From contig NZ_RCNT01000003.1 in NCBI RefSeq assembly GCF_003688285.1, forward strand, positions 193,501 through 257,500: a stretch of DNA of 64,000 nucleotides, written 5' to 3'. The notes beneath the pieces are model-generated. The model did no database searches, was not told the origin of the DNA, and saw only the letters and a program-made list of their open reading frames with translations. Below are positions 13,688-29,245 of the stretch, one piece after another. Position 1 is the first letter of the stretch, and every line of letters starts with the position of its first letter. The translations under genes were made by a program, and so were the position numbers. Source of the stretch: Rhodophyticola porphyridii. Lineage in GTDB: Bacteria; Pseudomonadota; Alphaproteobacteria; Rhodobacterales; Rhodobacteraceae.

Positions 13688-15613
13688 ATGACCAGCCAAC
13701 CCCACACCCCGCTGCTCGACCGGGTCAGAAGCCCCGCCGATCTGAAGCGCATGTCCGACGCGGAGCTTCGGGCGCTTGCCGATGAACTGCGCGCGGAAAC
13801 CATCGCGTCGGTCAGCAAAACGGGCGGGCACCTGGGCGCAGGGCTTGGCGTGGTGGAAATGACGGTTGCCATCCACGCCGTGTTCGACACTCCAAGGGAC
13901 CGGCTGATCTGGGATGTGAGCCACCAGTGCTACCCGCACAAGATCCTGACCGGGCGCCGCGACCGGATGCCGAGCCTGCGGCAGAAAGACGGGATCAGCG
14001 GGTTCACCAAACGCAGCGAAAGCCCCTACGATCCCTTTGGCGCGGCACATTCTTCCACCAGCATTTCCGCCGCCCTCGGCTTTGCCGTGGCCCGCGATCT
14101 GGGGGGCGCGCCCGAGCATGGGCTGGGCGACGCGATTGCGGTGATCGGCGATGGCGCGCTCAGCGCCGGCATGGCCTATGAAGCGATGAACAATGCGGGC
14201 CATCTGGGCAAGCGCCTGATTGTCATCTTGAACGACAACGAGATGAGCATCGCCCCGCCCACGGGCGCTATGTCGTCCTATCTCTCGCGGCTCTACGCGG
14301 GCGCCCCGTTTCAGGAGTTGAAGGCCGCGGCCAAAGGGGCCGTTTCCTTGCTGCCGGAGCCCTTTCAGGAAGGTGCGCGCCGGGCCAAGGAACTGCTGAA
14401 AGCCGCCACAGTCGGGGGCACCTTGTTCGAGGAACTCGGCTTTTCCTATGTCGGGCCGATTGACGGGCACGATATGGAACAGCTTCTCGCCGTTCTCAGA
14501 ACCGTCAAGGTCCGGGCCGACGGGCCGATCCTGATCCATGCGATCACCAAGAAGGGCAAGGGATACGTCCATGCCGAGAGCAAGCCGGACGGCGGCCACG
14601 CCACCACGAAATTCGACGTGCTCACCGGAGAGCAGAAAAAGGCGCCCTCCAACGCGCCCTCCTATACCAAGGTCTTTGCGCAGGCCCTGATCCGAGAGGC
14701 GGAGGATGATCCGCTGATCACCGCTGTGACGGCCGCGATGCCCGATGGCACCGGTCTCAATCTTTTTGCCGAGCGGTTTCCGAACCGGTGTTTCGACGTG
14801 GGTATTGCCGAGCAGCATGCGGTGACGTTCAGTGCCGGCATGGCGGCCGGGGGCCTGAAACCGTTCTGCGCGCTCTACTCCACTTTCCTGCAGCGCGGGT
14901 ATGATCAGGTCGTCCATGATGTGGCGATCCAGCGCCTGCCCGTTCGGTTCGCGATTGACCGCGCGGGCCTTGTTGGCGCGGATGGGGCAACCCACGCAGG
15001 CAGTTTCGACATCGCCTATCTGGCAAATCTGCCTGGCTTCGTCGTGATGGCCGCGGCGGATGAAGCGGAACTGGTCCATATGGTCGCCACCGCACGGGCA
15101 ATCGACGACCGGCCATCGGCCTTCCGCTTCCCCCGGGGCGAAGGTGTCGGCGTCGAAATGCCAGAACGCGGGACGGTACTGGAGATCGGCAAGGGCCGCA
15201 TCGTGGCGGAAGGCTCCCGGGTTGCGATCCTGTCCTTCGGAACCCGCCTGAAGGAAGTGCAGGACGCCGCCGAAGCGCTGAGTGCCAACGGGATTACGCC
15301 GACGATCGCGGACGCCCGTTTCGCCAAGCCGCTGGACGAGGATCTGATCCTGCAACTTGCCCGTCATCACGAGGCGCTGATCACCATCGAGGAAGGCGCC
15401 ATTGGCGGTTTCGGATCGCATGTCGCGCAGCTTCTGGCCGAAAACGGGATGTTCGACAGCGGTCTCAGATATCGCTCAATGGTGTTGCCGGATATCTTCA
15501 TCGATCAGGCCAGCCCGCGGGACATGTACGCCGTGGCCGCCATGAATGCCGAGGACATCGTGGCGAAGGTGCTGCGCACACTGGATATCGGCGTGATCGG
15601 AAAACGCGCCTAG
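13688..15613 (+). CDS. dxs: 1-deoxy-D-xylulose-5-phosphate synthase
   Basis: About 641 residues, normal for DXS, the thiamine-diphosphate enzyme that joins pyruvate and glyceraldehyde 3-phosphate in the first step of the MEP isoprenoid pathway. Visible are the TPP-binding [16 protein letters not shown], the [16 protein letters not shown] loop, the transketolase-like [17 protein letters not shown] with its catalytic Glu, and the C-terminal domain. A GTG at 13658 would extend it, but AAGGGAGG just before ATG 13688 fixes the start there. Its stop overlaps by 4 bp the stop of the convergent hydantoinase gene. Confidence 0.97.
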
Positions 15614-17049
15614 GACGGCAGGGTCGCCGCGGGATCGGGCAGAGGCCGCATCGACGTGCTGATCTCCATCGGCAGGCGCCGCCCCCTACCCGGCTTGCCC
15701 AGCACACGACCCTGATCCACAACGATCTCCCCGCGCGAGATGACGGTTTCGGGCCAGCCTCTTACCACCCGCCCGGCATAGGGGTTGTAGCCGGTGTTGT
15801 CGTGCAGATCATCCACGCCAAAGGTGACGGTCCTGTCAGGATCCCATAGTACGATATCCGCATCCGCGCCGGGCGCGATCCTGCCCTTGCCGGGCAGACC
15901 GTAGATATCGGCCGGATTTGTCGCAGTAAGCGCCACGAAGCGTTCGGCCCCAAGCCGGCCTTGCGACACCATCGCGTCGAACAGAAGCGGCAGACGGGTT
16001 TCCAGCCCCGGCATGCCATTGGCGATCTTGTTGAACGGCGCATCGCGGCCATGGGCAAACTTGCCGGTGTCATCCAGCCGATAAGGGGCATGGTCGGAGG
16101 AGACCACCTGCAGATACCCCCGTTCCAATGCCTGCCACAAAGCCTCCTGATCCTTGAGTTCCCGCTGCGGCGGACTGCACATCAGGCCAGCGGCCTCATT
16201 GCCCGGAAGATCAAGCTGATCTACCGTCATGAAGAGGTAATGGGGGCAGGTTTCGGCCAGCGCGGGCACACCGCGCGCGCGGGCAGCCCGAACAATCTCC
16301 ACGCCCTCGGCGCAGGAGATATGAAACAGCATGACGGGCTGCCCCGTCACCTCGGAAAAGATGCACATCCGGTTCAGCGCTTCGATTTCGGCGGCGCGGG
16401 GGTGGGACGCGGGATGGAACCGCGCGCCTGTTTTCCCGGCTTCGATCAGACGCCGGGTCATCCAGCGGATCAGCCCGTCATTCTCGGAGTGGATGTTGAC
16501 CAGACCACCATGGCAGCGCGCGCACCACAACACATCCAGGATATCCTCATCGCCCATGCGCACCCTGTCATAAACCGTGAAAAGCTTGATTGAGCGGTGA
16601 CCCTGAGCAAGAAGCGACGGCAGATCATCCGTCAGATTCCCGCCAGACAGATCTGATACGATGATATGAAACGCATGATCGCAGATCGCGCCTTTGGCGG
16701 CGAGCGCCTGATAATCCTCCACCACCTTTGAAAGCTTTTGCCCCGGGTGCTGCGCCGCAAAGGAAATCGTTGTCGTGGTGCCCCCAATCAGAGCCGAACG
16801 CGTCGCTGTTTCGAAGCTGTCGGCATTCATCAGCCCGGCGCCGGAAAGCTGTTCGATATGGCAATGGCTGTCGACGCCGCCCGGCATGACCAGCCGCTCG
16901 GTGGCGTCAATCTCCACCGGGGCCTGCCCGATCTGCTGGCCGACCGCCACGACTTTCCCGCCCTGAACAGCGATATCCGCGCGCTCCGTGCGCTCGGCGG
17001 TAACCACTGTTCCGTTGCGGATTATCATGTCATGAGACTGTCTTGCCAT
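15610..17049 (-). CDS. Hydantoinase/dihydropyrimidinase-family amidohydrolase
   Basis: About 479 residues, cyclic-amide hydrolase fold. The two-metal site is complete: H62 and H64 in DSHCHIEQ, the carbamylated lysine K155 in SIKLF, histidines in NIHSEND and LFHISCAEG, and the catalytic Asp in SSDHAPY. Family members open dihydropyrimidine, hydantoin or related five- and six-membered cyclic amides. It is divergent from a GntR regulator gene and a transport/catabolic operon that includes a hydantoin-racemase-like protein, supporting a hydantoin-like substrate. Start is uncertain: ATG 17049 or 17028, both with weak ribosome-binding sites. The stop overlaps dxs by 4 bp. Confidence 0.88.
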
Positions 17050-17080
17050 GCGTTTGCCATCTGCCCAGAGTTGCCCAGTT

Positions 17081-17099
17081 CGGTACACTTACGGTATAC
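17081..17099. promoter_or_regulatory. Tandem GGTACAC/GGTATAC operator candidate before the hydantoinase gene
   Basis: CGGTACAC (17081-17088) and CGGTATAC (17092-17099) are direct repeats 11 bp apart, about 30 nt upstream of the hydantoinase start. The same unit recurs upstream of the transport operon at 17905-17934. FadR-type GntR proteins such as E. coli NanR bind GGTATA repeats, so the GntR encoded next door is the likely ligand. Confidence 0.5.
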
Positions 17100-17173
17100 G
17101 TAGACAAAGCCGGAGGGCAAGTTGCCGCGAAAGTGGTCCTGTCGGCCCCTTGTAGCGGGAGGTTATGAAGATA

Positions 17174-17836
17174 ATGAGTATCAACCAGGCGCAATCCGGG
17201 GCAAAAACGCTGAGCGCGGCGGTGCATGACCGGCTGAAGGGGATGATCCTGGGCGGAGATCTTCCGGCCGGCACCCGGCTTCAGGAGAAAGCATTCGCCG
17301 AACGGCTTGGCGTGTCGCGGACGCCCGTGCGCGAAGCGATTGCCAGACTGGTGAGCGAAGGCCTGGTCAGCCGCGTGAATGGTGGCGCGCCCACTGTCAG
17401 CAATATCTCGATCACCGACATCATGGAGCTTCTGCATGTCCGGCGGCTGCTGGAATGCGAGGCGGCGCGCCAGGCGGCCGGCGTCAACGGGCCACCGGAG
17501 CCATTCATCTCCTTGCGCAAAAGGGTGACGGACTTCCTTGGCTCGGAACGGCCGACACCCACGGAGCATGCCGCGCTGGACGATGAACTACATGCGCTTA
17601 TCGCAAAACGCGCCGGATCCGGCCTTCTGCATGAGTTGATCGTCGGATTGAAGCTGAAGACCAGGATGTTCGACAACGGCTCGATCCCGGAGCGGTTCGA
17701 GCCGGGCTGCCGGGAGCATATCGAGATCATCGATGCGATTCTGGCGCAAGACCCGAACCGCGCCGACAAGGCGATGCGGCTTCATCTGGAAAATGTCCGG
17801 TCGGCGATTCTGGCGCATGTAAACCGTCTTTTCTGA
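17174..17836 (+). CDS. GntR-family (FadR/FCD-type) transcriptional regulator
   Basis: About 220 residues. N-terminal winged helix-turn-helix: RLQEKAFAERLGVSRTPVREAIARLVSEGLV is the GntR signature; the C-terminal helical FCD ligand domain has the metal-binding histidines expected (D-x3-H near DDELHALI, then REHIEIIDAI and LHLENV). Such regulators usually repress catabolic operons and release DNA on binding a pathway acid. ATG 17165 is only 2 nt from GGGAGG while ATG 17174 is 11 nt away; the second is preferred. It sits between the hydantoinase gene and the transporter operon, both preceded by GGTATAC repeats. Confidence 0.9.
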   Translation: MSINQAQSGAKTLSAAVHDRLKGMILGGDLPAGTRLQEKAFAERLGVSRTPVREAIARLVSEGLVSRVNGGAPTVSNISITDIMELLHVRRLLECEAARQAAGVNGPPEPFISLRKRVTDFLGSERPTPTEHAALDDELHALIAKRAGSGLLHELIVGLKLKTRMFDNGSIPERFEPGCREHIEIIDAILAQDPNRADKAMRLHLENVRSAILAHVNRLF

Positions 17837-17898
17837 CGGCATCCTGCCTTTTCGATGAGCAGATCCACCTGATCGGCGGGCTGATCCCGCCATCTCCG

Positions 17899-17934
17899 TT
17901 GACAGGATATACTTTTGGTATACCGTCGGTATGG
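17899..17934 (+). promoter_or_regulatory. Promoter/operator region of the transport-catabolic operon
   Basis: A consensus -35 TTGACA lies at 17899-17904. Just downstream are three units, GGATATAC, TGGTATACC (GGTATACC at 17917-17924 is a perfect palindrome) and CGGTATGG, whose TAT elements begin at 17908, 17919 and 17930, exactly 11 bp apart. Overlap with the space where the -10 should be suggests repression by a GntR protein. No good -10 hexamer at 16-18 bp is seen. Confidence 0.5.
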
Positions 17935-17958
17935 AATCAGGGAAATGAGGGCGCGCGC

Positions 17959-18369
17959 GTGAGCAGTTCAATCGATACCACCCCGGCAAAGGCGAGACCG
18001 GGCGGAGAGGTCGAGCTTGCAATCACCTTCCTGTATTACCGCGACCTGTCCACAGCGATGGCCTTCTACGAAACGGTTCTGGGATTGAAACTGGCCATCG
18101 ATCAGGGTTGGTCGAAGATCTACCGGATTGCCGGGCAGGCCCATGTGGGGCTGGTTGACGAGACCCGCGGCATGCAGCGCGCGTCGGAGCAGAAACCCGT
18201 GCAGATCTGTCTGCGCGTGGCGGATGTCGACGCCTGGTACGACTGGATAAGGACCAGTGAGGCCAAGGGTCTGACCCGGATGTTCGACAGCACCGAACTT
18301 GGCATCCGCGCCTTTGCCTTCAACGACCCCGAAGGCTACCAGATCGAGATCCAATCGGTGTTGGCGTAA
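17959..18369 (+). CDS. VOC-family (glyoxalase/bleomycin-resistance fold) protein
   Basis: About 136 residues in one VOC module of two beta-alpha-beta-beta-beta halves: AITFLYYRDLSTAMAFYETVLGLKL is the classical first repeat and ICLRVADVDAWYDWI the second; NDPEGYQIEIQSV ends with the usual metal-ligand Glu. VOC enzymes are lyases, isomerases or dioxygenases acting on small acids. Start GTG 17959 follows GAGG by about 9 nt; a longer TTG form would begin inside the promoter. It is the first gene of the operon downstream of the GntR gene, so it probably acts on the transported compound or a product of it. Confidence 0.8.
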   Translation: MSSSIDTTPAKARPGGEVELAITFLYYRDLSTAMAFYETVLGLKLAIDQGWSKIYRIAGQAHVGLVDETRGMQRASEQKPVQICLRVADVDAWYDWIRTSEAKGLTRMFDSTELGIRAFAFNDPEGYQIEIQSVLA

Positions 18370-18442
18370 GCGCCAGCACTGCAACGAGACAAGGGCGGCG
18401 AAACGCTCAGGCAGAACGCCATCAACAAGGAGACAGCTGAAA

Positions 18443-20008
18443 ATGACGAAGCAATTCCCAACCAAGCTGAAAGGGCTGCTGGCAACGGCCGCGCTTGCTC
18501 TGGTCCTGCCCGGCATCGCCGCGGCGCAGGATCAGACCCTGACCGTCGGCTTGACCGCCGACGCCGTACATCTTGACCCGCAGGCCGGCGAAGAGCTGTC
18601 CAGCAACATCATGTTCTACCACCTTTACGACCCGCTGGTGCGCCGCGACGCGAACCTTCAATTCGGGCCCGGATTGGCGGAAAGCTGGGAACTGGTGGAT
18701 GACGTCACCTGGCGGTTCACCCTGCGCGAAGGCGTCACCTTCCATAACGGGGAGCCGTTCACCGCCGACGACGTGATTTTCACCTTCGACCGGCTGAAAG
18801 ACTCGCTGATGTCGAACCTGGCCAAGAACATCGACACCTATACAGCCGTTGACGAGCGCACGATAGAGATCGTCACCTACCAGCCCTATGCAGCCCTGCC
18901 GAACGATCTGGCCGCGATCCTGATCCTGAACAGGGATCACGCCGAGGCAGTGGGCGAAGACCAGATGGAGTTGCAGCCGGTCGGCACGGGCCCCTATCAG
19001 TTGAATGAATGGATCCGCGAAGACCGTATCGTTCTGGATGCGTTTCAGGAATATTATGCGGGACCCGCGGAGATCGATCAGGTGGTCTTCCGCCCGCTGA
19101 CAAACCCCGCGACACGGACGGCGGCCCTGCTGACCGGAGAGCTGGATATCGTGCAGGATCTCTCGGTGCGCGATGTGGAACGGGTTGCAGCAGAGGACGG
19201 ATTTGAGGTCGTCACGCGGCCCAGCCTTCTGAATCTCGTTCTGGCACTGGATGTGCGCCCCCAATCGCCGACAATCGATCTCGACACCAACCCGATGACC
19301 GACCGGCGCGTGCGGGAGGCGATTGCCCGCGCGATCGATGTGGAAACGATCCGCACGGTGATCATGAACGGGCTGTCCACCCCTTCGGAACAATATGTGC
19401 CCTCCACCCATGTCGGATATCTCGAAGGCGCCAATTTCCGCGAGATGTACCCGTTCGATCTGGAGGCGGCCCGCGCTCTGATGGCCGAGGCGGGATATGC
19501 GGACGGCTTTACCATGACCCTTGACGCCACCAACAACCGCTATGTGAACGATGCGCAGATCGCTCAGGCGCTCGCCTCGATGCTGTCGCAGATCGGGATC
19601 ACGCTGGAATTGAACCTGATGCCGCGCGCGAACTTCTTCGGCTATATCCGGGTGCCGTCCGAGCAGTCGAGCTTCATCATGTCCGGCTGGGATGTGCCTT
19701 CGGGCGATGCCGGATCGATGTATGCCAGCATGTTCTATTCACCCGGCACCCGCGAAGGGTATTCGCAGGTCAACCGCGGCCACTACTCCAATCCGGAAGT
19801 CGACCGTCTGATCGATCTGGCGGACTCGACCCCGCGGGTCGAGGAGCGCGATGCCCATTTGCAGCAGGTCACCGAAATCCTGTTGCAGGACATTCCGATG
19901 ATCCCGGTTCATTACGAGCAGGATATCTACGGCGTGCGCGACGGGATCGAGTTTGAACCCCGGACAGACAAGTTCCTCTGGGCCTACGACATCCGAATCG
20001 CCGAGTGA
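18443..20008 (+). CDS. ABC transporter substrate-binding protein, peptide/nickel/opine family
   Basis: About 521 residues with a clear signal peptide (KLKGLLATAALALVLPGIAAAQ), so periplasmic. It is a SBP_bac_5 (DppA/OppA-type cluster C) protein: HLDPQAGEELSSN, LAESWELVDDVTWRFTLREGVTFHNGEPFTADD and the PVGTGPYQLNEW motif are all diagnostic. AAGGAG is 10 nt before ATG 18443. Permeases and ATPases follow, after a 116-nt gap holding a strong hairpin terminator, which would give excess binding protein over membrane components. The ligand is unknown; the neighbouring hydantoinase and amidohydrolase suggest a small amide or ureide rather than a peptide. Confidence 0.93.
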   Translation: MTKQFPTKLKGLLATAALALVLPGIAAAQDQTLTVGLTADAVHLDPQAGEELSSNIMFYHLYDPLVRRDANLQFGPGLAESWELVDDVTWRFTLREGVTFHNGEPFTADDVIFTFDRLKDSLMSNLAKNIDTYTAVDERTIEIVTYQPYAALPNDLAAILILNRDHAEAVGEDQMELQPVGTGPYQLNEWIREDRIVLDAFQEYYAGPAEIDQVVFRPLTNPATRTAALLTGELDIVQDLSVRDVERVAAEDGFEVVTRPSLLNLVLALDVRPQSPTIDLDTNPMTDRRVREAIARAIDVETIRTVIMNGLSTPSEQYVPSTHVGYLEGANFREMYPFDLEAARALMAEAGYADGFTMTLDATNNRYVNDAQIAQALASMLSQIGITLELNLMPRANFFGYIRVPSEQSSFIMSGWDVPSGDAGSMYASMFYSPGTREGYSQVNRGHYSNPEVDRLIDLADSTPRVEERDAHLQQVTEILLQDIPMIPVHYEQDIYGVRDGIEFEPRTDKFLWAYDIRIAE

Positions 20009-20019
20009 TCTCTCCCACG

Positions 20020-20057
20020 GGGGGTGGCGCCGGGTCTGGTGCCACCCCCTGCTTTTT
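20020..20057 (+). terminator. Intrinsic terminator/attenuator between SBP and permease genes
   Basis: A 12-bp GC-rich stem (20020-20031 with 20038-20049, one G-T pair), loop GGGTCT, followed by TGCTTTTT at 20050-20057. It is a textbook rho-independent terminator placed inside an operon, so read-through probably sets the ratio of binding protein to transporter. Confidence 0.85.
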
Positions 20058-20124
20058 CGAACACACGGAACCCGGGCCTGCCCCGGTTGCGCGGCGGGCC
20101 TCGCCCCCGCAATGAGGACATGGC

Positions 20125-21090
20125 ATGTTCGCCTATACCATCAAACGCCTGATCCAGATGGTGGTCGTCCTGTGGGCCGTCTCGGTAATCGTCTTCCTGA
20201 TGATGAGTTTCACCGGCGATCCGGTTTTCATGGTGATCCCGATCGATTCCTCCGAAGCCGAGATTGAACAGGCACGGCGGATTCTGGGTCTCGACCGGTC
20301 CCTGACCGAGCAATACTTCATCTTTCTGGGCAATCTGCTGCAGGGCGACTTCGGCACCTCCTACGTGTTTCGCCAGCCCGCAATCGATCTGATCCTGGAA
20401 CGTCTTCCCGCCACACTGGAAATCGTGGTGGTGGCCATGGTCATCGCCACAACCATCGCAATCCCGCTCGGGGTCTATGCGGGCGCCAATCCGGGCAGGC
20501 CGCTCAGCCGGTTGATCATGTCGGGCTCTCTCCTGGGTATCTCCCTGCCCGGCTTTTGGGTCGGCATGATGCTGATCTATTTCTTCGCGGTCGAATGGCG
20601 CATCTTCCCGTCCTCCGGCCGCGGTGACACGGTGGAAGTCTTCGGCGTCCCGACCTCCCTTCTGACCGCGGATGGCTGGAGCCACGTCCTGTTGCCGGCA
20701 ATCACGCTTTCGGTCGGGACGCTGGCGATCCTGCTCAGGATCACGCGCGCGGGGATGATGGAGGTTTCACGACAGGATTACATGAAATTCGCCCGCGCCA
20801 AGGGCGTGTCCCGCAGGGGCGTCCTCTATGGCCACGGTCTGAGGAACGGCTTGATCCCGGTGGTGACCATCTTCGGGCTGCAACTGGGCGATCTTATCGC
20901 CTTCGCTACGATCACGGAAACGATCTTCGGCTGGCCTGGAATGGGCAAGCTGCTGGTCGACTCCATCTATCGCGCGGATCGCCCCGTGATTGTCGTCTAT
21001 CTGATGCTGGTGGCGCTGATCTTCGTGGTGATCAATTTCCTCATCGACATCCTCTACACGATGATCGACCCGCGCATCACGGTGAAATAG
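20125..21090 (+). CDS. ABC transporter permease, DppB/OppB type
   Basis: 321 residues, six predicted membrane helices; the first lies at about 9-30. The conserved permease coupling loop is visible in ARAKGVSRRGVLYGHGLRNGLIPVVT (A-x3-G-x-S...), which contacts the ATPases. It forms the inner-membrane pore with the DppC-type protein encoded 1 nt downstream. GAGGAC precedes the ATG. Family sure; transported compound unknown. Confidence 0.93.
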   Translation: MFAYTIKRLIQMVVVLWAVSVIVFLMMSFTGDPVFMVIPIDSSEAEIEQARRILGLDRSLTEQYFIFLGNLLQGDFGTSYVFRQPAIDLILERLPATLEIVVVAMVIATTIAIPLGVYAGANPGRPLSRLIMSGSLLGISLPGFWVGMMLIYFFAVEWRIFPSSGRGDTVEVFGVPTSLLTADGWSHVLLPAITLSVGTLAILLRITRAGMMEVSRQDYMKFARAKGVSRRGVLYGHGLRNGLIPVVTIFGLQLGDLIAFATITETIFGWPGMGKLLVDSIYRADRPVIVVYLMLVALIFVVINFLIDILYTMIDPRITVK

Positions 21091-21091
21091 G

Positions 21092-21967
21092 ATGATGCAA
21101 GCCTTTCTCGCCTCGCAATTCTTCTTCAACTGGCGCCGCAACCTGTCGGCGATCATCGGGAGCGTCATCATCGCGATCTTCATCGTGATCGTGGCGTTCG
21201 GCCCGTTGATGGTGGCGCAGGATCCCTATGACCTGACGCAACTGAACCTGCTGGACAGCTACAAACCGCCGGCATGGCTGCCGGGCGGCGACCCGCGATA
21301 CCTGCTGGGAACCGACGGACAGGGGCGCGATGTTCTGGCGTCGATCATATATGGCACGCGGGTATCGGCGATGATCGGAATCGCGGCGATGCTCTGCTCC
21401 TGCCTGATCGGAACCAGTCTCGGGCTTCTGGCGGGGTTCTACGGCGGGCGGCTCGACGCGATCATCATGCGGATTGCCGACCTGCAACTGTCCTTTCCCT
21501 CCATGCTGATCGCGCTGTTCCTGATGTCGGCGGTGGGCACCGGCGTCGACAAGGTGCTGATCGCGCTGACGGCCGTGGGGTGGGTTGTCTATGCCCGCAC
21601 GGTGCGCGGCTCCACACTCGGAGAGATCGAGAAGGAATATGTGCAGGCCGCGCGGGTTGCCGGGCTCACGAACGCAAAGATCATCCGCCGCCACGTGCTT
21701 CCCAACGTTCTGACCCCGCTGATCGTGATTGCGACCGTGCAGGTCGGCACGTTCATCCTGATCGAAGCATCGCTCAGCTTTCTGGGCGTTGGTGTGCCGA
21801 TCACGCAGCCATCCCTCGGCCTCCTCATCAAGAACGGGTTCGACGTCCTGTTTTCCGGGCTCTGGTGGACCTCGGTCTTCCCCGGCCTGATGATCATGGC
21901 GATGGTTTTCGGCATCAACCTGTTTGGCGATTTCCTCCGCGACGAACTGAACCCGAGGTTGAAATGA
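21092..21967 (+). CDS. ABC transporter permease, DppC/OppC type
   Basis: 291 residues with an N-terminal cytoplasmic/first-helix extension and the DppC-type central permease domain. LGTDGQGRDVLASIIYGTRVS and the coupling loop AARVAGLTNAKIIRRHVLPNVLTPLIV are typical. Pairs with the upstream DppB-type permease. The gene overlaps the ATPase gene downstream by ATGA (21964-21967), giving translational coupling through the whole transporter. Confidence 0.93.
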   Translation: MMQAFLASQFFFNWRRNLSAIIGSVIIAIFIVIVAFGPLMVAQDPYDLTQLNLLDSYKPPAWLPGGDPRYLLGTDGQGRDVLASIIYGTRVSAMIGIAAMLCSCLIGTSLGLLAGFYGGRLDAIIMRIADLQLSFPSMLIALFLMSAVGTGVDKVLIALTAVGWVVYARTVRGSTLGEIEKEYVQAARVAGLTNAKIIRRHVLPNVLTPLIVIATVQVGTFILIEASLSFLGVGVPITQPSLGLLIKNGFDVLFSGLWWTSVFPGLMIMAMVFGINLFGDFLRDELNPRLK

Positions 21968-22965
21968 CCATGCAGAGCGAGAGCCGGGATCCGCTGTTGT
22001 CCGTTCGCGACCTGAGAACATGGTTCCACACATTTTCCGGCGTGGTGAAGGCCGTGAACGACGTCAGCTTCGATCTGGCCCAGGGCGAGATCATGGGGCT
22101 TGTGGGTGAATCCGGCGGTGGCAAATCGGTCGTCGGGTTTTCGATCCTGGGTTTGATCGACCCGCCGGGACGGATCGAGGGTGGGCAGATACTGCTCGAT
22201 GGCGAGGATCTCGCCAAGGCCTCTGAAGACAGGTTGCGCAAGATCCGCGGACGGGAGATTGCGATGATTTTCCAGGATCCGATGACCTCGCTCAATCCCG
22301 TTCACACGATCGGGCGACAGATGGATGAAATGCTGCGCCTTCACACGGATATGGACGAGGCCGCCCGCCGGAAACGCTGTATCGAGATGCTCGAAAGTGT
22401 CGGCATTTCCCAGGCCGAGGACCGGTTGCGCGCCTATCCGCACCAGTTTTCCGGCGGCATGCGCCAACGCGTGGTGATCGCCATCGCCATGCTGGCCCAT
22501 CCAAGGCTGATCATCGCGGATGAGCCGACGACGGCGCTCGACGTCACCATTCAGTCGCAGATCCTGAAGCTCATGAAACGGCAGGTCGCGGATCATGGTG
22601 CCTCGATGATCCTCGTCACCCATGATCTGGCCGTGGTTTCGGAGGTCGTGGACAAGATCACCGTGCTTTATTGCGGGCAGGTCGTGGAACGCGGCGATGT
22701 CCGCGATGTCATCTCGGCGCCATCCCACCCCTATACCCGCGGCCTGATCGATTCGATCCCCAACCCCGATCATCGGCAGCCCCGGCTGAGCCAGATCCCC
22801 GGCACGGTCCCGGATATCCGGAACCTGCCCAAGGGCTGCAACTTCCGCGACAGATGCCCCCGGGCGCAGGCACTCTGCGCGCAGGAGGAACCCAAGCTAT
22901 CCCCCACCCGCCAGAGCCTGTTTGCCGCATGTCATTTCCCAATCGGAACCGGAGGTGACGCATGA
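21964..22965 (+). CDS. ABC transporter ATP-binding protein, DppD type
   Basis: About 333 residues. Walker A GESGGGKS at 48-55, Q-loop FQDP, signature FSGGM, Walker B LIIADEP followed by TTALD, and H-loop VTHD are all intact. The C-terminal oligopeptide-transporter extension has [14 protein letters not shown], the cysteine cluster seen in DppD/OppD proteins. It powers uptake together with the DppF-type ATPase. ATG 21964 overlaps the permease stop; the next gene overlaps its stop in the same way, with GGAGG in between. Confidence 0.95.
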
Positions 22966-23981
22966 ACGCGATGCTGGATGTGGAGGGGCTGGAACAGCGG
23001 TTCCATCTGAACCCCGGCCTGCTGGACCGGCTGAGCTTCGAGGGCGGCCGGCCGCGGTTGAAAGATCTCGTCGTTCATGCGGTCAATGGCGTCAGCTTTT
23101 CGATCGCCAAGGGCGAAGTACTTGCATTGGTGGGGGAATCCGGCTGCGGGAAATCTACCGTCGCCAAGACCATCGCCCGGATCTACGACCCGTCCTCGGG
23201 GCGCATCCGCATCGAAGGAGAGGATATCACCGACTACGACCATGCAAAGCTCCTGCCGGTCCGCGCCAAGATGCAGATGATCTTTCAGGACCCGTTCGCC
23301 TCTCTGAACCCGCGTCAGAAGGTTCGCGATATCGTGGCCGAGCCCCTGTTGCAGCAAGTCGGCGATGGTGCACGCGCCGAGGTGGCAGACAAGACCGAGG
23401 CCCTGCTGGCCCGCGTCGGGCTCAACGCCGAACATGGCGGGCGGTATCCGCACCAGTTTTCCGGCGGACAGAGACAGCGCATCGGGATTGCCCGGGCCTT
23501 GTCGGTCAACCCCGGTCTGATCATCGCCGATGAGCCGGTCTCCGCACTTGATGTCTCGATCCAGGCGCAGATTCTGAACCTGATGATGGACCTGCGGGAT
23601 GAATTCGGTCTGGCCTATCTGTTCATCAGCCATGATCTGTCGGTTGTGCATCACATCGCCGACCGGATCGGCGTGATGTATCTGGGGTTCATGGTGGAAA
23701 CCGCGCCGCGCGATCAGCTTTTCGCAAGGCCGCGCCATCCCTACACCCGGGCGCTCTTGTCCGCCGCGCCCAGCATCCGGCCAAGCCGAATGACGGAAGA
23801 GATCGAACTGACGGGCGAGGTGCCGAGCGCCTTGTCGCTTCCCACGGGCTGCTGCTTCCGCACCCGCTGCCCCTTTGCCTGGGACCGATGCGCCGTGGAA
23901 CGCCCCGTCCTGCAGGATATCGGCGACGGGCAAAGCGCTGCCTGTCACCTCATCGACGAGCCGGAAAGAGATAACCAATGA
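22962..23981 (+). CDS. ABC transporter ATP-binding protein, DppF type
   Basis: 339 residues. Walker A GESGCGKS, Q-loop FQDP, signature FSGGQ, Walker B LIIADEP with VSALD and H-loop ISHD are complete; the C-terminal CCFRTRCPFAWDRC cluster matches the family. An N-terminal insertion of about 20 residues between the first strand and Walker A (LLDRLSFEGGRPRLKD) is common in DppF. It completes the ATPase heterodimer. Its stop overlaps the start of a second SBP-like gene (ATGA at 23978-23981). Confidence 0.94.
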   Translation: MNAMLDVEGLEQRFHLNPGLLDRLSFEGGRPRLKDLVVHAVNGVSFSIAKGEVLALVGESGCGKSTVAKTIARIYDPSSGRIRIEGEDITDYDHAKLLPVRAKMQMIFQDPFASLNPRQKVRDIVAEPLLQQVGDGARAEVADKTEALLARVGLNAEHGGRYPHQFSGGQRQRIGIARALSVNPGLIIADEPVSALDVSIQAQILNLMMDLRDEFGLAYLFISHDLSVVHHIADRIGVMYLGFMVETAPRDQLFARPRHPYTRALLSAAPSIRPSRMTEEIELTGEVPSALSLPTGCCFRTRCPFAWDRCAVERPVLQDIGDGQSAACHLIDEPERDNQ

Positions 23982-25426
23982 ACCGCCCCCTGATCATCGT
24001 GCAGCCCCGTCTGCCGCTGCGAGACCCGCATGATTGCACCGACGCAAACGATGAGCTGGCGATTTACGAAGCCGTATTCGACACGCTGATCAGACGGAAG
24101 GGGACAGGCTTCGTTCCCCGCCTCGCCGAAAGCTGGACAGTGTCGGACGATGCGAAAGACTGGGTTTTCAAGCTGCGCGCGGGTGTCCGGTTCCATGATG
24201 GCAGCCCTTGCGACGCGGCCTCGGTTTGCCTGTCGCTGTTGCGGATGGCGCGGCCGGACAAAGGTTATGCACTCGGTTCTCCGGGTGTCTGGCGGCAGTA
24301 TCTGGGCGGGGCGCGCGTTACCGCGCCGGATGATCGGACCGTTTCGATCAGCCTCGCAACGCCGATGGCCGATTTGCTTGACGTCTTGGTGCAGGGCTAC
24401 ATCGCGGCGCCCGCCAGTCTTGGCGATCTGGACGCGGGCATCACCGGCCGGCCGACAGGCACGGGCCCATACCGCGTGACCCACGCGGATAGCGCAGCGT
24501 TGGAACTGGTCCGTGTGCCGGATCATTTCTCGGCGACGCCCGCGCATCAGCACATCCAGATCCGCCTTGTTCCCGATGCCGGGCAACGCCTGTCGATGCT
24601 GCAGGAGGCGGCAGCTGATGTTGCCACATCGCTGGACTATCACGCCAGCCAAAGCCTGAGCGCGCCCCGCTTCACGCGTGTGGAAACCACCGTACCGGTT
24701 GCGATCATCTATCTGCTGAACGCAGCGAAAGGTCCGCTGGCCGATGCCCGTCTTCGCCGTGCGCTGAACCTTGCACTTGACCGGCAGGCTTTGATCGACA
24801 CGGTGGTCGGCGGCGCGGCGCGGCCCCTGTTGGGGTTCGTAAGTCCGATGCATTTCGGCGCGGGGGGCGGGGCCGCATTGCCTCAGGATCTGACCGCGGC
24901 CAAGGCGCTTCTGACAGATGCCGGATATGCCGACGGGCTGACGCTTTCACTGGACTGCCCGACCCGCCTGCCGGACGAGGCGGAAAAGCTTACCGCCGCC
25001 TTGGGCGCACAATTGGCCAAAATCGGCATCACGCTGGACATCCAGTTACACTCAGACCGCGAAGCCTATGCCCATATGGTCCGCCGCAAGGAAATCGGCG
25101 ATCTGTGCGTCTTCGATTCAAGCCCCCTGTCCACCTTCAGGGTGCTGCATGAAAAGATCGACGCACGGGTCAAGGGGGCGTGGTGGCAGGGCTATCACAA
25201 TGCCGATGTGGAAAGCCTGCTCGACGCGGCGCGGACCACACCGAACGAGATCACCCGCGCCGCCCTGTTTCAGGAGGCCTATGCCGAGATGCAGCGCGAT
25301 CCGCCCTGGCTGACACTTTACAATCCGATCCGCGTCACCGGCCTGCGCGGCGATCATCCCGGCTTCGCCTTGCCGGTGGATGGCGTACTGAACATTGCCG
25401 GGCTGCCCGGGATGGAGGACGCGTGA
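23978..25426 (+). CDS. SBP_bac_5-fold protein without a signal peptide
   Basis: 482 residues, clearly related to DppA-type binding proteins: LIRRKGTGFVPRLAESWTVSDDAKDWVFKLRAGVRFHDG and the PTGTGPYRVTH motif are visible. Unlike the first SBP of this operon it begins MNRPLIIVQPRLPLRDPHD, with no hydrophobic signal segment. An in-frame TAA only four bases before the ATG (23972-23974) rules out a longer N-terminus. It is therefore predicted to be cytoplasmic, unless exported by an unusual route. A ligand sensor, chaperone or storage role is possible; none is proved. It is coupled by ATGA to the DppF gene and by TGATG to the amidohydrolase gene. Confidence 0.85.
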   Translation: MNRPLIIVQPRLPLRDPHDCTDANDELAIYEAVFDTLIRRKGTGFVPRLAESWTVSDDAKDWVFKLRAGVRFHDGSPCDAASVCLSLLRMARPDKGYALGSPGVWRQYLGGARVTAPDDRTVSISLATPMADLLDVLVQGYIAAPASLGDLDAGITGRPTGTGPYRVTHADSAALELVRVPDHFSATPAHQHIQIRLVPDAGQRLSMLQEAAADVATSLDYHASQSLSAPRFTRVETTVPVAIIYLLNAAKGPLADARLRRALNLALDRQALIDTVVGGAARPLLGFVSPMHFGAGGGAALPQDLTAAKALLTDAGYADGLTLSLDCPTRLPDEAEKLTAALGAQLAKIGITLDIQLHSDREAYAHMVRRKEIGDLCVFDSSPLSTFRVLHEKIDARVKGAWWQGYHNADVESLLDAARTTPNEITRAALFQEAYAEMQRDPPWLTLYNPIRVTGLRGDHPGFALPVDGVLNIAGLPGMEDA

Positions 25427-26880
25427 TGGCCGATCTGCTTGTCACGGGCGCCACGATCATCCCCGTCGATGCGGCCCGCAGGGTGATTTACGACGGGGCG
25501 ATGGCCATCACCGAAGGGCGGATCACAGCCATCGGCCCGCGCGACGAGGTCGAGGCCCGCCATGACGCCCCGCAGGTCATCGATGCCAAGGGCAAGGTGA
25601 TGCTTCCCGGTCTGATCGATGTGCATGCCCATGCGGGCCACGGGCTGATCAAAACCATGGGCATGGAACAGGCGAACCATTGGGAACGGATTTGCGGAGA
25701 AGTCTATACCACCGGTTCAACGCCGGCTTTCTGGTATGCGGAGGCCCGGCTGGCGGCGCTGGAACGGTTGCGCTTCGGGGTTACCTGCGGTGTCTCGCTT
25801 CTGGGCGGCGGCGATACCATCATGCGAACCGACAGCCCGGAATATGCGGCCGCCCATATGCAAGGCGTGGCCGAGATCGGCACGCGCGACGTAATGGCCG
25901 TCGGCCCCACACGAGCCCCACATCCGCTGAGCTATGCAACGTGGCAGGCCGATGGCCGCGCCACCCATCATCCGGTGAGCTTCGAGCAGCAGCGTGCCAC
26001 TTGCGAGGAGGTGCTGAGCCGCTGGCATGGAGCCAATGCGGGGCGGCTGTCGGTCGCCTTGATTTATCCGGTCCTGCGCGACGAACACGAATGCAACATG
26101 GCCCCTCGCGATTACGAGGACGCCTGCCGTCAGGCGCGGATCATCCGCGCTCTGGCGCGCGAGGCGGGCGTGGTGTTCACCCAGGACGGGCATTGGCGCG
26201 GATCGGTCCGCCGTGCCCATGATCTCGGCTTGCTTGGCCCCGATACGCTTCTTTCCCACGCGATCGATCTGCACGAAGACGAAATCCTGCTTTGCGCAGA
26301 TAGCGACACGCGGATCGCGCATAATCCCTCAGCCATTGCATCGGTCATGGGCCGTTGCCCGGCGGTCGAACTGATCGAGGCGGGTGCGACCGTGGCGCTA
26401 GGTTCGGATGCGACCGCGCCGGATCGTTCGGCAGACATGTTTCGGCACATGCAGCAGGCGATGCACTACCACCGCCGGCATTTCAGGGACGCCGGCATCC
26501 TGCCCCCCGGCAAGACTCTTGAAATGGCGACCATCGATGGCGCGACCGCGCTTGGGCTGGCCGATCAGATCGGTTCGCTGGAAGTTGGAAAGAAGGCCGA
26601 TGCAATCCTGATCGACATGCAACGCCCTCATCTCTACCCGCTGAACATGGAACCGTTCCGTGTCGTCTATTTCGCCAATGGCAATGATGTGGATACGGTT
26701 CTGATCGATGGCGAAGTGCTGTTGAGCGATGGGATGCCTACCCGGGTCGAGACCGGCGCGGTGCTGGCCGAGGCTCAGGCGGAGGCGGACGCGATGATTG
26801 ATCGGATCGGCGCCAGAGACATGCTCGGTGTACCGCCGGGGTTCTGGGGACAGGCCCGGTATGACGGAGGGACAGTATGA
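25426..26880 (+). CDS. ATZ/TRZ-type amidohydrolase
   Basis: About 484 residues, TIM-barrel metal-dependent hydrolase. Metal ligands are expected in DVHAHAGHG (HxH at the end of strand 1), a histidine in QDGHWRG, LSHAIDLHEDE, and the Asp in LGSDATAPDRS. The N-terminal MADLLVTGATIIPVD and C-terminal VGKKADAILID strands build the side beta-sandwich of this family. Relatives deaminate or dechlorinate triazines, guanine, S-adenosylhomocysteine and other N-heterocycles or remove amino groups. Start ATG 25426 overlaps the preceding stop. In this operon it probably performs a hydrolytic step on an imported nitrogen heterocycle; substrate unknown. Confidence 0.87.
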   Translation: MADLLVTGATIIPVDAARRVIYDGAMAITEGRITAIGPRDEVEARHDAPQVIDAKGKVMLPGLIDVHAHAGHGLIKTMGMEQANHWERICGEVYTTGSTPAFWYAEARLAALERLRFGVTCGVSLLGGGDTIMRTDSPEYAAAHMQGVAEIGTRDVMAVGPTRAPHPLSYATWQADGRATHHPVSFEQQRATCEEVLSRWHGANAGRLSVALIYPVLRDEHECNMAPRDYEDACRQARIIRALAREAGVVFTQDGHWRGSVRRAHDLGLLGPDTLLSHAIDLHEDEILLCADSDTRIAHNPSAIASVMGRCPAVELIEAGATVALGSDATAPDRSADMFRHMQQAMHYHRRHFRDAGILPPGKTLEMATIDGATALGLADQIGSLEVGKKADAILIDMQRPHLYPLNMEPFRVVYFANGNDVDTVLIDGEVLLSDGMPTRVETGAVLAEAQAEADAMIDRIGARDMLGVPPGFWGQARYDGGTV

Positions 26881-27539
26881 GCATCCATATCATCAATCCC
26901 AACAGCAGCCGGACCGTGACCGACGGTATCGACGCGGCCATTGACCCGATGCGCACGGCCAGCTCCGTCCCGATCCTCTGCAGCCATCTGCACGGCACCC
27001 CACCGGGGATCGAAACCCAGGCCCATGTCGATGGCGTGGTTGCCCCGCTTCTGGCGCGTGCCGCAGAGCTGGAAGACGAGGCATCGGCCTTCGTGATCGC
27101 CTGTTTCTCGGATCCCGGGCTTGCGGCATTGCGCGAGCAAAGCGCCAAACCCGTTCTGGGTATCGCCGAAAGTGCGGTTCTGACAGCGATGACCCTTGGC
27201 CAGCGCTTCGGTATCCTGTCGATCCTGCCCACCTCCGTTCCGCGGCATATGCGGTTTCTTGGGGCAATGGGTGTGATGGACAGGCTGGCCGGGGATCTGC
27301 CGCTGAATCTGGGTGTGGCCGATCTCGGCGACGAGGGCAGGACATTTGCCCGCCAGAAGGAGGTGGGCGCGCGCCTGCGCGACAGCCACGGCGCGGATGT
27401 GCTGATCCTCGGATGCGCGGGCATGACGGCCTATCGCAAACGCCTGTCCGAGGCGCTTGGCCTGCCCGTTGTCGAACCCTGTCAGGCCGCTGCCGCAATG
27501 GCGATCGGCCGTGTCGCCCTAGCCAAGACCGATGTCTAA
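26877..27539 (+). CDS. Asp/Glu/hydantoin racemase family protein
   Basis: 220 residues. Starts SIHIINPNSS, the nucleotide-free racemase motif seen in hydantoin racemases (HyuE), and holds the two catalytic cysteines in VIACFSDPGL and LILGCAGMT. Such enzymes interconvert D- and L-5-substituted hydantoins or related acids, or act as arylmalonate decarboxylase-like or maleate isomerase-like enzymes. Together with the divergent hydantoinase this argues for hydantoin or ureide metabolism. It overlaps the amidohydrolase stop (ATGA) and is 15 nt from the DapA-like gene. Confidence 0.87.
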   Translation: MSIHIINPNSSRTVTDGIDAAIDPMRTASSVPILCSHLHGTPPGIETQAHVDGVVAPLLARAAELEDEASAFVIACFSDPGLAALREQSAKPVLGIAESAVLTAMTLGQRFGILSILPTSVPRHMRFLGAMGVMDRLAGDLPLNLGVADLGDEGRTFARQKEVGARLRDSHGADVLILGCAGMTAYRKRLSEALGLPVVEPCQAAAAMAIGRVALAKTDV

Positions 27540-27554
27540 CAAAGGATCCTTGCC

Positions 27555-28478
27555 ATGACCCATCTGACCGAAGACGCGCATGGCGTTTACGTGATTGCCG
27601 TCACCCCGTTCCTGCCCGATGGCGGCCTGGATCTGGAAAGCACCGACCGGATGGTGGATTTCTATCTGGAGACCGGGGCGACCGGCCTGACGGTTCTGGG
27701 CATGATGGGGGAGGCACCAAAGCTGACCATCGAGGAGTCGCGCATCGTCGTGCGGCGCATCCTGGCCCGTGTGGCTGGCCGTGTGCCGGTTGTCGTCGGA
27801 GTGTCGGCACCGGGTCTTGCGCAGATTCAGGCGCTCAGCACGGCGGTCATGGATGATGGGGCCGCAGGCGTCATGATCGCGCCGCCCGGCAACCTGCACA
27901 CCGATGACCAGATCGTCTCATACTACCATCAGGCGGCACATTTCATCGGTGACACACCCTTCGTCCTGCAGGATTTTCCGCTGGCCACGGGCGTTCACAT
28001 GTCCGTCCCGGTCATCAAGCGGATCATCGAAGATCTGCCCGGTTGCGTTTGCCTCAAACACGAAGACTGGCCTGGACTGGAGAAGATATCTGCATTGCGG
28101 GCGGAAGGCGCCGTTTCGCGGCGGATCTCCGTGCTTTGCGGCAATGGCGGGCTGTTCCTGCCCGAAGAAATGGCGCGAGGCGCGGACGGGGCGATGACGG
28201 GGTTCGGGTATCCGGAAATGATGGTCGACGTCGTCCGCCACCATCGGGCGGGTACGCCCGACCGTGGGCAGGACATATTCGACGCCTATCTGCCGCTGGC
28301 GCGCTATGAGTTGCAGCCGGGGGCGGGGCTGGCGGTTCGGAAATACGTGCTGGCCAAACGCGGCGTGATTGCGCATGCCACGCTCCGCCGCCCCGGCGCG
28401 GCCATCACCGATGCCGCGCGCGCCGAAGTGGATCGGCTGATCGAGAGACAAGAGAAACGTTTGAAGGAGATTGGCTGA
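27555..28478 (+). CDS. DapA-like (dihydrodipicolinate synthase/NAL family) aldolase
   Basis: 307 residues, class I Schiff-base TIM barrel. GVYVIAVTPFLPDGGLDLES is the standard N-terminus, TGLTVLGMMGEAPKLTIEE carries the substrate-binding G-x-x-G-E motif, FVLQDFP supplies the aromatic/acid residue where true DapA has YN-P, and the Schiff-base lysine is in CLKHEDW. The replacement of the usual Y-N-x-P by Q-D-F-P argues against a housekeeping lysine enzyme. Family members cleave or form 2-oxo acid aldols or dehydrate sugar acids. In this operon it probably acts late in the pathway. Confidence 0.88.
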   Translation: MTHLTEDAHGVYVIAVTPFLPDGGLDLESTDRMVDFYLETGATGLTVLGMMGEAPKLTIEESRIVVRRILARVAGRVPVVVGVSAPGLAQIQALSTAVMDDGAAGVMIAPPGNLHTDDQIVSYYHQAAHFIGDTPFVLQDFPLATGVHMSVPVIKRIIEDLPGCVCLKHEDWPGLEKISALRAEGAVSRRISVLCGNGGLFLPEEMARGADGAMTGFGYPEMMVDVVRHHRAGTPDRGQDIFDAYLPLARYELQPGAGLAVRKYVLAKRGVIAHATLRRPGAAITDAARAEVDRLIERQEKRLKEIG

Positions 28479-29245
28479 TGGAATTGGGAATAACCGGGAA
28501 ACGCGCATTGGTTCTGGGGGCCAGCCGGGGTCTGGGCCGCGCTATAGCCGAAGGTCTGGCCGCGGAGGGCGTCAAGGTTTTTGCCGCCGCGCGCAGCGTC
28601 GACAGGATCACCGACTGGTCCGCAGATCTGCCGAACGTCACGCCCATGCGGGTCGATCTCGCCGATCATGCCAGCGTCGCGCAGCTTGCCGAAACGCTTC
28701 TGTCGGCGGGCGGCGTCGACATTCTGGTCACAAACTCCGGCGGCCCGGCCCCCGGCCCCGCAGCCACCGCCGCGCGCAGCGACTGGATCGCGCAGTTCGA
28801 AGCGATGGCGGCGAACATCTTCGATCTTTCCGCCCGGCTTCTGCCCGGCATGCGCGAGCGTGGCTGGGGCCGGATCATCTGCATCACATCGTCGGGCGTG
28901 GAACAGCCCATTCCCAATCTGGCGCTTTCGAACGGTATCCGGTCTGCCGTGGTGGGCTGGGCCAAGACACTGGCCGCCGAGGTCGCAGCGGACGGTGTGA
29001 CCGTGAATGCAGTTCTGCCGGGCCGTATCCATACCGACAGGGTGGATGAACTGGACGCCGCCGCCGCGAAACGGAGCGGCAAACCGGTGGAGGATATCAA
29101 GTCCGCCTCCGCCGCCAGCATTCCCATGGGCCGCTATGGCAAACCATCGGAATTCGCCGATATGGTGGTGTTTCTCGCCTCGGAGCGCGCGTCCTATGTT
29201 ACCGGCAGCCGGGTCCGGATCGACGGAGGATCTATCCGCTCCTAG
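28478..29245 (+). CDS. SDR-family NAD(P)-dependent oxidoreductase
   Basis: 255 residues. Rossmann motif GASRGLGRAIAEGLA in the classical T/S-G-x3-G-x-G form, NSGGPAPG in place of NNAG, and C-terminal YVTGSRVRIDGG are present. At the catalytic position the sequence reads CITSSGVEQPIPNLALSNGIRSAVVGWAKTLA; the usual tyrosine of Y-x3-K is not obvious (NLALSNGIR), as in the 3-oxoacyl reductase-like FabL/ 'SDR without Tyr' set. The reaction is thus uncertain. It overlaps the DapA-like stop (TGATG) and ends 0 nt from the convergent channel gene. Last gene of the operon. Confidence 0.85.
   Translation: MELGITGKRALVLGASRGLGRAIAEGLAAEGVKVFAAARSVDRITDWSADLPNVTPMRVDLADHASVAQLAETLLSAGGVDILVTNSGGPAPGPAATAARSDWIAQFEAMAANIFDLSARLLPGMRERGWGRIICITSSGVEQPIPNLALSNGIRSAVVGWAKTLAAEVAADGVTVNAVLPGRIHTDRVDELDAAAAKRSGKPVEDIKSASAASIPMGRYGKPSEFADMVVFLASERASYVTGSRVRIDGGSIRS

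Follow-up and report, generated by a model that had tools for sequence, protein, structure and literature searches.

A thirteen-gene unit with hydantoinase, racemase and transporter genes in Rhodophyticola porphyridii and its possible role in the catabolism of a cyclic ureide

We analysed a stretch of 64,000 nucleotides of Rhodophyticola porphyridii (assembly GCF_003688285.1, contig NZ_RCNT01000003.1, positions 193,501 to 257,500), in the following called the window. An earlier note, made from its sequence alone, had described a GntR-controlled set of hydantoinase, transporter and catabolic genes. Thirteen genes, from a hydantoinase gene (HYD) to a gene of the SDR family, span positions 15610-29245, which confirms the coordinates of that note, and we discuss them here as a possible catabolic unit for a cyclic ureide. 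In the window, HYD is directed leftward, and the gene of a GntR/FCD regulator is directed rightward together with eleven further genes, with overlaps of one or four bases in 6 of the 11 rightward gene pairs. Both flanking genes converge into the unit, dxs on the left with an overlap of four bases and an ion-channel gene on the right, which abuts it.

Nine of the genes were assigned to families by a scan with NCBIfam and Pfam, and for the two permeases and the two ATPases the identification comes from homology to annotated loci. HYD (15610-17028, minus strand; the longest open reading frame reaches 17088) belongs to the ring-opening amidohydrolases of the D-hydantoinase/dihydropyrimidinase type. 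All other genes lie on the plus strand. They start with the regulator gene (17165-17836; PF00392 and PF07729 over cut-off), the gene of a VOC-superfamily protein (VOC, 17959-18369; PF00903 over cut-off) and the gene of a family 5 solute-binding protein with a leader-like N-terminus (SBP1, 18443-20008; PF00496). Two permeases of the Dpp/Opp type, PER1 (20125-21090; homologous to an annotated permease in locus L071) and PER2 (21092-21967), and two ATPases, ATP1 (21964-22965) and ATP2 (22962-23981), follow, so that a complete Dpp/Opp-type ATP-binding cassette (ABC) importer is encoded in the unit. Downstream are SBP2 (23978-25426; PF00496), which has the family 5 solute-binding fold and no visible signal peptide, the ATZ/TRZ-type amidohydrolase AMH (25423-26880), RAC (26877-27539) of the Asp/Glu/hydantoin racemase family, the Schiff-base enzyme DAPA (27555-28478) of the DHDPS/NAL superfamily, and the SDR-family protein SDR (28478-29245).

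The distribution within the genus suggests that these genes belong together. All thirteen, about 13.6 kb, lie between dxs and the ion-channel gene in four of the seven genomes of the genus (G000, G198, G199 and G202). In the other three, the distance between dxs and the ion-channel gene is 783 bp (G167), 940 bp (G200, an assembly that is 89% complete) and 541 bp (G201). A homologue of DAPA at an E value of 1e-15 was not found in G200 or G167, and that of G201 lies elsewhere in the genome, shows 63% identity and contains an internal stop. The only unit gene between dxs and the ion-channel gene of G201 is VOC, which is 75% identical and open throughout (L183:1062-1469). The pattern resembles a deletion from which VOC was spared, although VOC may also have arrived first. 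In G202, the reading frame of DAPA is broken close to the 3' end (L182:13943-14862); the other twelve genes of the unit match over most of their length. The ratios of nonsynonymous to synonymous substitution rates (dN/dS) of all thirteen genes are low and range from 0.013 to 0.159 in comparison with G198, where dS is near saturation, and from 0.022 to 0.139 in comparison with G199. The thirteen genes appear to form one unit that was gained or lost together.

Beyond the genus, homologues of DAPA were found in 45 of the 198 genomes of the family, the own genome included, and 40 of the 48 listed places were taken; further loci came from 15 of 75 plasmid records and from the best 80 of at least 576 contig matches. 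The sample comprises 135 loci, 130 of them without identical DAPA copies and 128 with a called DAPA gene; it was selected by DAPA similarity and is non-random, and some contigs end within the locus. Among the 128 loci, RAC was found within 13 genes of DAPA in 72, HYD in 53 and an ErtD-like ring opener (cluster k4) in 26; SDR was present at this distance in 57, VOC in 49, SBP2 in 23 and AMH in 22. A ring opener, HYD or k4, is that close in 76 loci, accompanied by RAC in 62. Since a whole-genome search detected six PF01177 proteins in the own genome, we estimate that roughly 4% of the loci would have a protein of this family within this distance by chance. Annotated records of Sulfitobacter alexandrii and S. 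faviae show all thirteen genes in this order, which was also seen in locus L033, Labrenzia has the order of the unit with one extra amidohydrolase, and Microvirga ossetica has a rearranged form. The order recurs in other Rhodobacterales and in Hyphomicrobiales, and relatives of the unit occur in Alphaproteobacteria (marine roseobacters, rhizobia, Devosia, Bosea, Microvirga) and in a few Betaproteobacteria. At this point we want to mention a HYD-DAPA locus on a Comamonadaceae plasmid (L083:469-3573), which also has genes annotated as allantoinase PuuE and ureidoglycolate lyase.

Two parts of the unit recur by themselves. HYD-VOC-RAC-DAPA is contiguous in 24 of the 128 loci, and on the fetched stretch of 23 of these no SBP1, SBP2, AMH, PER1, PER2 or ATP1 was seen; the remaining one (L043) has one ATPase on the opposite strand. 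The run VOC-SBP1-PER-PER-ATP-ATP-SBP2-AMH is contiguous in 15 loci, and AMH is accompanied by SBP2 in 21 of its 22 loci. As the core cassette and the transporter-SBP2-AMH run each recur contiguously, the comparison suggests two modules, one of transporter, SBP2 and AMH for import and first hydrolysis, and a core of HYD, VOC, RAC and DAPA, often with SDR. Across the branches of the DAPA tree the genomic context changes repeatedly; the context labels of this tree cover eight genes only, and loci with a hydantoinase about 11 genes off are labelled 'other'.

A putative promoter-operator of the run from VOC to SDR (17899-17925, plus strand) combines TTGACA-N14-TATAC with the palindromic core GGTATACC. 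Because it takes up these positions, the start of VOC is most likely the GTG at 17959. The pattern TTGAC[AT]-N14-16-TATAC is present in all ten examined gaps between GntR and VOC genes, including that of the window (17899). In 130 loci, comprising about 5 million strand-bases, it occurs 13 times, in each case before a cluster gene (VOC 11, RAC 1, GntR 1). The palindrome KGTATACCR was found in the window at 17916-17925 only, and 6 of 100 shuffles reached the two strand matches that are given by one palindrome. In the whole genome KGTATACCRTCNG occurs a single time, at the promoter-operator of the unit. A GGTATAC half-site without assigned strand (17093-17099) precedes the divergent starts of HYD and GntR and is kept in L180-L182. 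At the VOC gene of G201, the TTGACA box is kept and the operator is changed. We infer that the GntR protein is a repressor which binds to GGTATAC-type sites. The view of the earlier note that the locus is one regulated gene set is borne out by presence or absence as a block, gene order and operator conservation; the synteny search which it had proposed revealed a conserved order in other genomes rather than the scattered homologues that would have spoken against it.

The enzymes allow a first look at the substrate. HYD reached 497.7 bits with TIGR02033 (cut-off 393.25), and its nearest solved structure is the D-hydantoinase 1nfg. The complete metal site and the hydantoin-racemase-like protein that had been read from the sequence before are both confirmed. 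All six ligands of HYD (H75, H77, K168, H200, H256 and D332) are present and individually at least 93% conserved over 52 rows, and RAC matches PF01177 (185.1 bits) and has two cysteines, C76 and C180, each found in at least 93% of 73 rows. The nearest PDB entry of RAC is a putative hydantoin racemase, and allantoin racemase entries are also near. HYD does not reach the thresholds of the ErtD models, with scores of 225.1 bits against a cut-off of 650 and 186.1 bits against a cut-off of 600. A ring opener of the D-hydantoinase type and a two-cysteine racemase would fit a cyclic ureide, and from the sequences a 5-substituted hydantoin or a precursor of it is the most likely substrate.

DAPA and SDR deviate from their families at the active site, as the earlier note had recognised from a changed loop and a lacking tyrosine, and the roles which it gave to them, an aldolase and an SDR that finish the carbon skeleton, are not upheld. 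The consensus active-site loop of DapA-type enzymes is GTTGE; in DAPA it is GMMGE. The catalytic Tyr of the class I aldolases of the DHDPS/NAL superfamily is replaced by Gln139, which, like Lys168 and Glu170, is invariant in all 28 sequences. These three residues align with Gln143, Lys171 and Glu173 of the L-2-keto-3-deoxyarabonate (L-KDA) dehydratase of A. brasilense (3fkk/7c0c), so that DAPA shares with this enzyme the Gln in place of Tyr, the Schiff-base Lys and the Lys-x-Glu arrangement. In a published account of L-KDA dehydratase (PMC9795676), Gln takes the place of the aldolase Tyr, and two glutamates are proposed as bases: Glu173, which is unconserved in other DHDPS/NAL enzymes, for C3 and Glu200 for C5. 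With Gln in the position of Tyr and a Lys-x-Glu like that of L-KDA dehydratase, the aldolase reading is unsupported in the form given. DAPA is probably no normal aldolase, and elimination appears more likely than aldol cleavage. The bit score of DAPA is 338 to 3dz1, the nearest solved structure, and about 105 to L-KDA dehydratase; no paper on 3dz1 was found in the open-licence PubMed Central (PMC) literature. In SDR, SNxxR (S151, N152, R155) stands at the position of YxxxK in at least 93% of 57 rows, so that S151 and R155 stand in for Tyr and Lys, and a normal dehydrogenase role is unsupported; the nearest solved relative, 5vps, likewise lacks Tyr and Lys. As a separate observation, DAPA adjoins an L-arabinonate-dehydratase-family protein and a 4-sulfomuconolactone hydrolase-like protein in L115, L116, L119, L121, L123, L129 and L146, which suggests a sugar-acid role for the DAPA members of these loci.

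Further unusual features are found in AMH, VOC and SBP2. AMH resembles the ATZ/TRZ amidohydrolases AtzA and TrzN in its fold (nearest is AtzA, 4v1x) and in the motifs of beta-1, beta-6 and beta-8, with HAHAGH at beta-1, H277 and D327 retained. Unlike in AtzA and TrzN, FTQDGH, invariant in 17 rows (alignment A2), stands where the beta-5 His motif would be expected. In a structure model (predicted local distance difference test score, pLDDT, 84.7) the strand 250-253 (F-T-Q-D) contains no His, and H255 follows two residues on; the alignments to solved structures are unsure around this region. An N-terminal metal His is typical for the VOC superfamily, and it was not seen in the alignment of VOC.

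SBP2 starts straight in the mature fold in all 21 relatives (by eye), and the AlphaFold model places the first strand at residues 5-9. With a mean pLDDT of 85.6, this model is that of a complete family 5 binding protein, for which Foldseek matches 5u4o (template modelling score, TM, 0.84) and 1uqw. The SBP2 start overlaps the stop of ATP2 by four bases in the window, and the same overlap is found in 15 of the 21 relatives. Relatives of SBP1 have leader-like N-termini in 19 of 20 cases (by eye), the remaining one being cut by the end of the stretch. Hydropathy fails to separate the N-termini of both proteins, with overlapping maximum 14-residue means; our argument for a signal-less SBP2 is thus based on the mature-fold start and the overlap with ATP2, not on hydropathy. 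Read directly, SBP2 would be a cytoplasmic binding protein that is fed by the transporter. Other DAPA loci encode a further kind of family 5-like protein (k51), which is signal-less as well in all four complete copies seen. No account of a cytoplasmic family 5 binding protein was found in the open-licence PMC literature. On contig C17 of the own genome (L178:3125-19839), a second cluster was noticed which combines a peptide-type ABC transporter with amidohydrolase-like, aminotransferase-like and aminopeptidase-P-like proteins, all named by eye from their sequences.

The removal of a carbamoyl group is the expected step after ring opening. In whole-genome searches, no match to HyuC-type carbamoylases (TIGR01879) or to CN-hydrolases (PF00795) was obtained in the locus; elsewhere in the genome, two proteins exceed the TIGR01879 cut-off and three match PF00795. 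The absence of a HyuC-type carbamoylase, as stated before, thus holds for the locus, but not for the genome. The two HyuC-type proteins are encoded at C16:39864 and C12:284574, the latter beside a dihydropyrimidinase-type protein. In other DAPA loci, carbamoylase-like proteins form the clusters k22 (nitrilase family), k83 (ErtE-like) and k80; for k22 and k83 this is based on the scan of a single member each, and for k80 on the annotation 'Zn-dependent hydrolase'. The k83 member of L113 reached 589.5 bits (ErtE cut-off 520). One of these clusters is near DAPA in 14 of the 128 loci, namely in none of the 22 loci with AMH versus 14 of the 106 others. The gene directly after SDR in S. alexandrii is annotated as carbon-nitrogen hydrolase; it is 30% identical to k22 and was not counted. 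AMH itself was considered as the missing carbamoylase because the three clusters share no locus with it; this pattern was rejected as evidence because S. alexandrii has both AMH and the gene after SDR, and because L107 has neither AMH nor a carbamoylase-like gene on its stretch. Some DAPA loci add genes for a D-amino-acid transaminase, a 5-oxoprolinase, a PatB C-S lyase or a GlcD-like oxidase. The carbamoylase-like and accessory genes support a route from the ring to an N-carbamoyl amino acid, the amino acid and a 2-oxo acid, which would be the substrate of DAPA. Separately, in six loci (L110, L132, L135, L137, L152 and L157) RAC-k4-DAPA is accompanied by a different peptide-type transporter, a rhodanese-like protein and a PatB-type C-S lyase, and four of the six encode a signal-less family 5-like binding protein of the second kind; the substrate of these loci may contain sulfur.

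On the whole, we give slightly better than even prospects to a scheme in which one GntR-controlled unit serves the catabolism of a cyclic ureide or a close cyclic amide. SBP1 and the peptide-type ABC transporter would import the compound. The first hydrolysis of the imported form, probably a deamination, would fall to AMH, whose gene travels with those of the transporter. HYD would then open the ring and RAC would interconvert the mirror forms, by which a stereoselective ring opening could reach completion. The carbamoyl group might be removed by a carbamoylase encoded elsewhere or by a further step in the locus. DAPA would bind the 2-oxo acid formed in this way as a Schiff base and would most likely expel a leaving group in the manner of L-KDA dehydratase, not by aldol cleavage, and SDR may act next to DAPA without the classical acid-base catalysis of its family. 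GntR would repress both divergent promoters via the GGTATACC-type palindrome until an intermediate binds. Of this scheme, gene content, presence or absence as a block, gene order, operator conservation and active-site residues are read from the sequences; the substrate class, the order of the steps, repression and the roles of AMH, VOC, SBP2 and SDR are inferred. A bolder version, which we regard as improbable, makes DAPA the founder of a new branch of Schiff-base lyases. Its leaving group would be a nitrogen group (ureido or ammonia) of a ring-opened 4-ureido-2-oxo acid, and the minimal cassette HYD-VOC-RAC-DAPA would need neither carbamoylase nor transaminase; in its larger form, a cytoplasmic SBP2 would receive the imported compound and hand it to AMH.

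Several observations weigh against the ureide scheme. Glu199/Glu200 of L-KDA dehydratase align with Asn197/Gly198, and because Glu200, the second base, is thus lacking, DAPA is not classed as an L-KDA dehydratase. Some DAPA relatives in Devosia and Rhizobium adjoin genes of the L-arabinonate dehydratase family and lactonase-like genes, not hydantoinases, so that the DAPA family is not tied to ureides; this gene set, too, points to a 2-oxo acid as DAPA substrate. In 42 of the 128 loci neither a ring opener nor RAC lies within 13 genes of DAPA. The substrates of HYD-family enzymes include dihydropyrimidines, cyclic imides and other amide rings as well, and deamination by AMH is a guess because no His was seen in the predicted beta-strand 5. 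Ligands of the named PDB relatives of SBP1 are peptides, glutathione, opines or nickel chelates.

Some of these points lead to other explanations. Degradation of a six-membered ring of the dihydropyrimidine type, or of a cyclic imide, with RAC acting on the opened product, is possible, though on the unlikely side. The scoring family of HYD spans both ring sizes, and because contig C12 encodes a dihydropyrimidinase-type protein of its own next to a HyuC-type one, HYD need not serve ordinary pyrimidine breakdown, which was rejected as main role because this gene pair exists elsewhere in the genome. However, the PDB entries closest to RAC are those of hydantoin and allantoin racemases, and the order RAC-k4-DAPA, in which k4 is ErtD-like (hydantoin-5-propionate amidohydrolase-like; the one member scanned reached 485.8 bits, below the cut-off of 600), occurs in 13 of the 128 loci. 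If instead the transporter reveals the true substrate, an opine- or peptide-like amino acid conjugate could be degraded and ring opening would be a side step. Peptide-, glutathione-, agrocinopine- and opine-binding proteins among the nearest solved relatives of SBP1 and SBP2 favour this reading, as do the 5-oxoprolinase, D-amino-acid transaminase or PatB C-S lyase genes of some DAPA loci. We consider it unlikely, for the transporter is replaceable: its genes are unseen on the fetched stretch of 23 of the 24 HYD-VOC-RAC-DAPA loci, and other loci have amino-acid ABC or TRAP systems.

The unit might also serve in the detoxification of a ring-shaped antimetabolite of plants, algae or microbes, with growth support being secondary. 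VOC proteins include drug-sequestering proteins, VOC is the only unit gene that remains at the site in G201, and at least two of the carriers have an alga culture or a plant nodule as their source. An ABC importer with two binding-protein genes argues for nutrient uptake, however, and no exporter-like gene is among the thirteen, so that this role seems quite improbable. Least probable by far is a chance neighbourhood or a set of separate units under different regulation. It is true that transporter, core cassette and SDR each occur apart in related loci and that only the six rightward gene pairs named above overlap. Against this stand the block-wise distribution within one genus, the recurring gene order and the one operator motif before both divergent starts, which carry the grouping beyond chance and rule out a chance neighbourhood.

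The unit is a variant of the hyu-type loci with several unusual parts. Such loci comprise a hydantoinase, an N-carbamoylase, a hydantoin racemase and a transporter, and the HyuP importer is of the NCS1 type. The unit likewise has a hydantoinase, a hydantoin-racemase-family protein and an importer, but it lacks a carbamoylase, its importer is a peptide-type ABC system, and AMH, VOC, DAPA, SDR and a signal-less binding protein are added. With the ErtD/ErtE pair of ergothioneine utilisation (NCBIfam models) it shares a ring opener of the hydantoinase family; the likeness extends to the k4 proteins and to the ErtE-like carbamoylase k83 of L100, L109 and L113. In contrast to ergothioneine utilisation, the unit has no sulfur step, and ergothioneine utilisation proper was rejected because HYD, with 225.1 bits at best, is far below the ErtD cut-offs. 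Reductive pyrimidine degradation by dihydropyrimidinase and beta-ureidopropionase also employs a hydantoinase-family ring opener, but for this the genome has the separate adjacent genes on contig C12.

No description of the gene set was found in the open-licence PMC literature, and annotated plasmid records give its proteins generic names, e.g. 'dihydrodipicolinate synthase family protein'. The unit and its relatives represent a pathway family in Alphaproteobacteria to which no function has been assigned. Solving the pathway would assign a function to a DapA subfamily whose nearest structure, 3dz1, bears a generic name. The same holds for a group of SDR proteins that lack Tyr and Lys, for the ATZ/TRZ amidohydrolase with its odd metal site and for the conserved signal-less binding protein.

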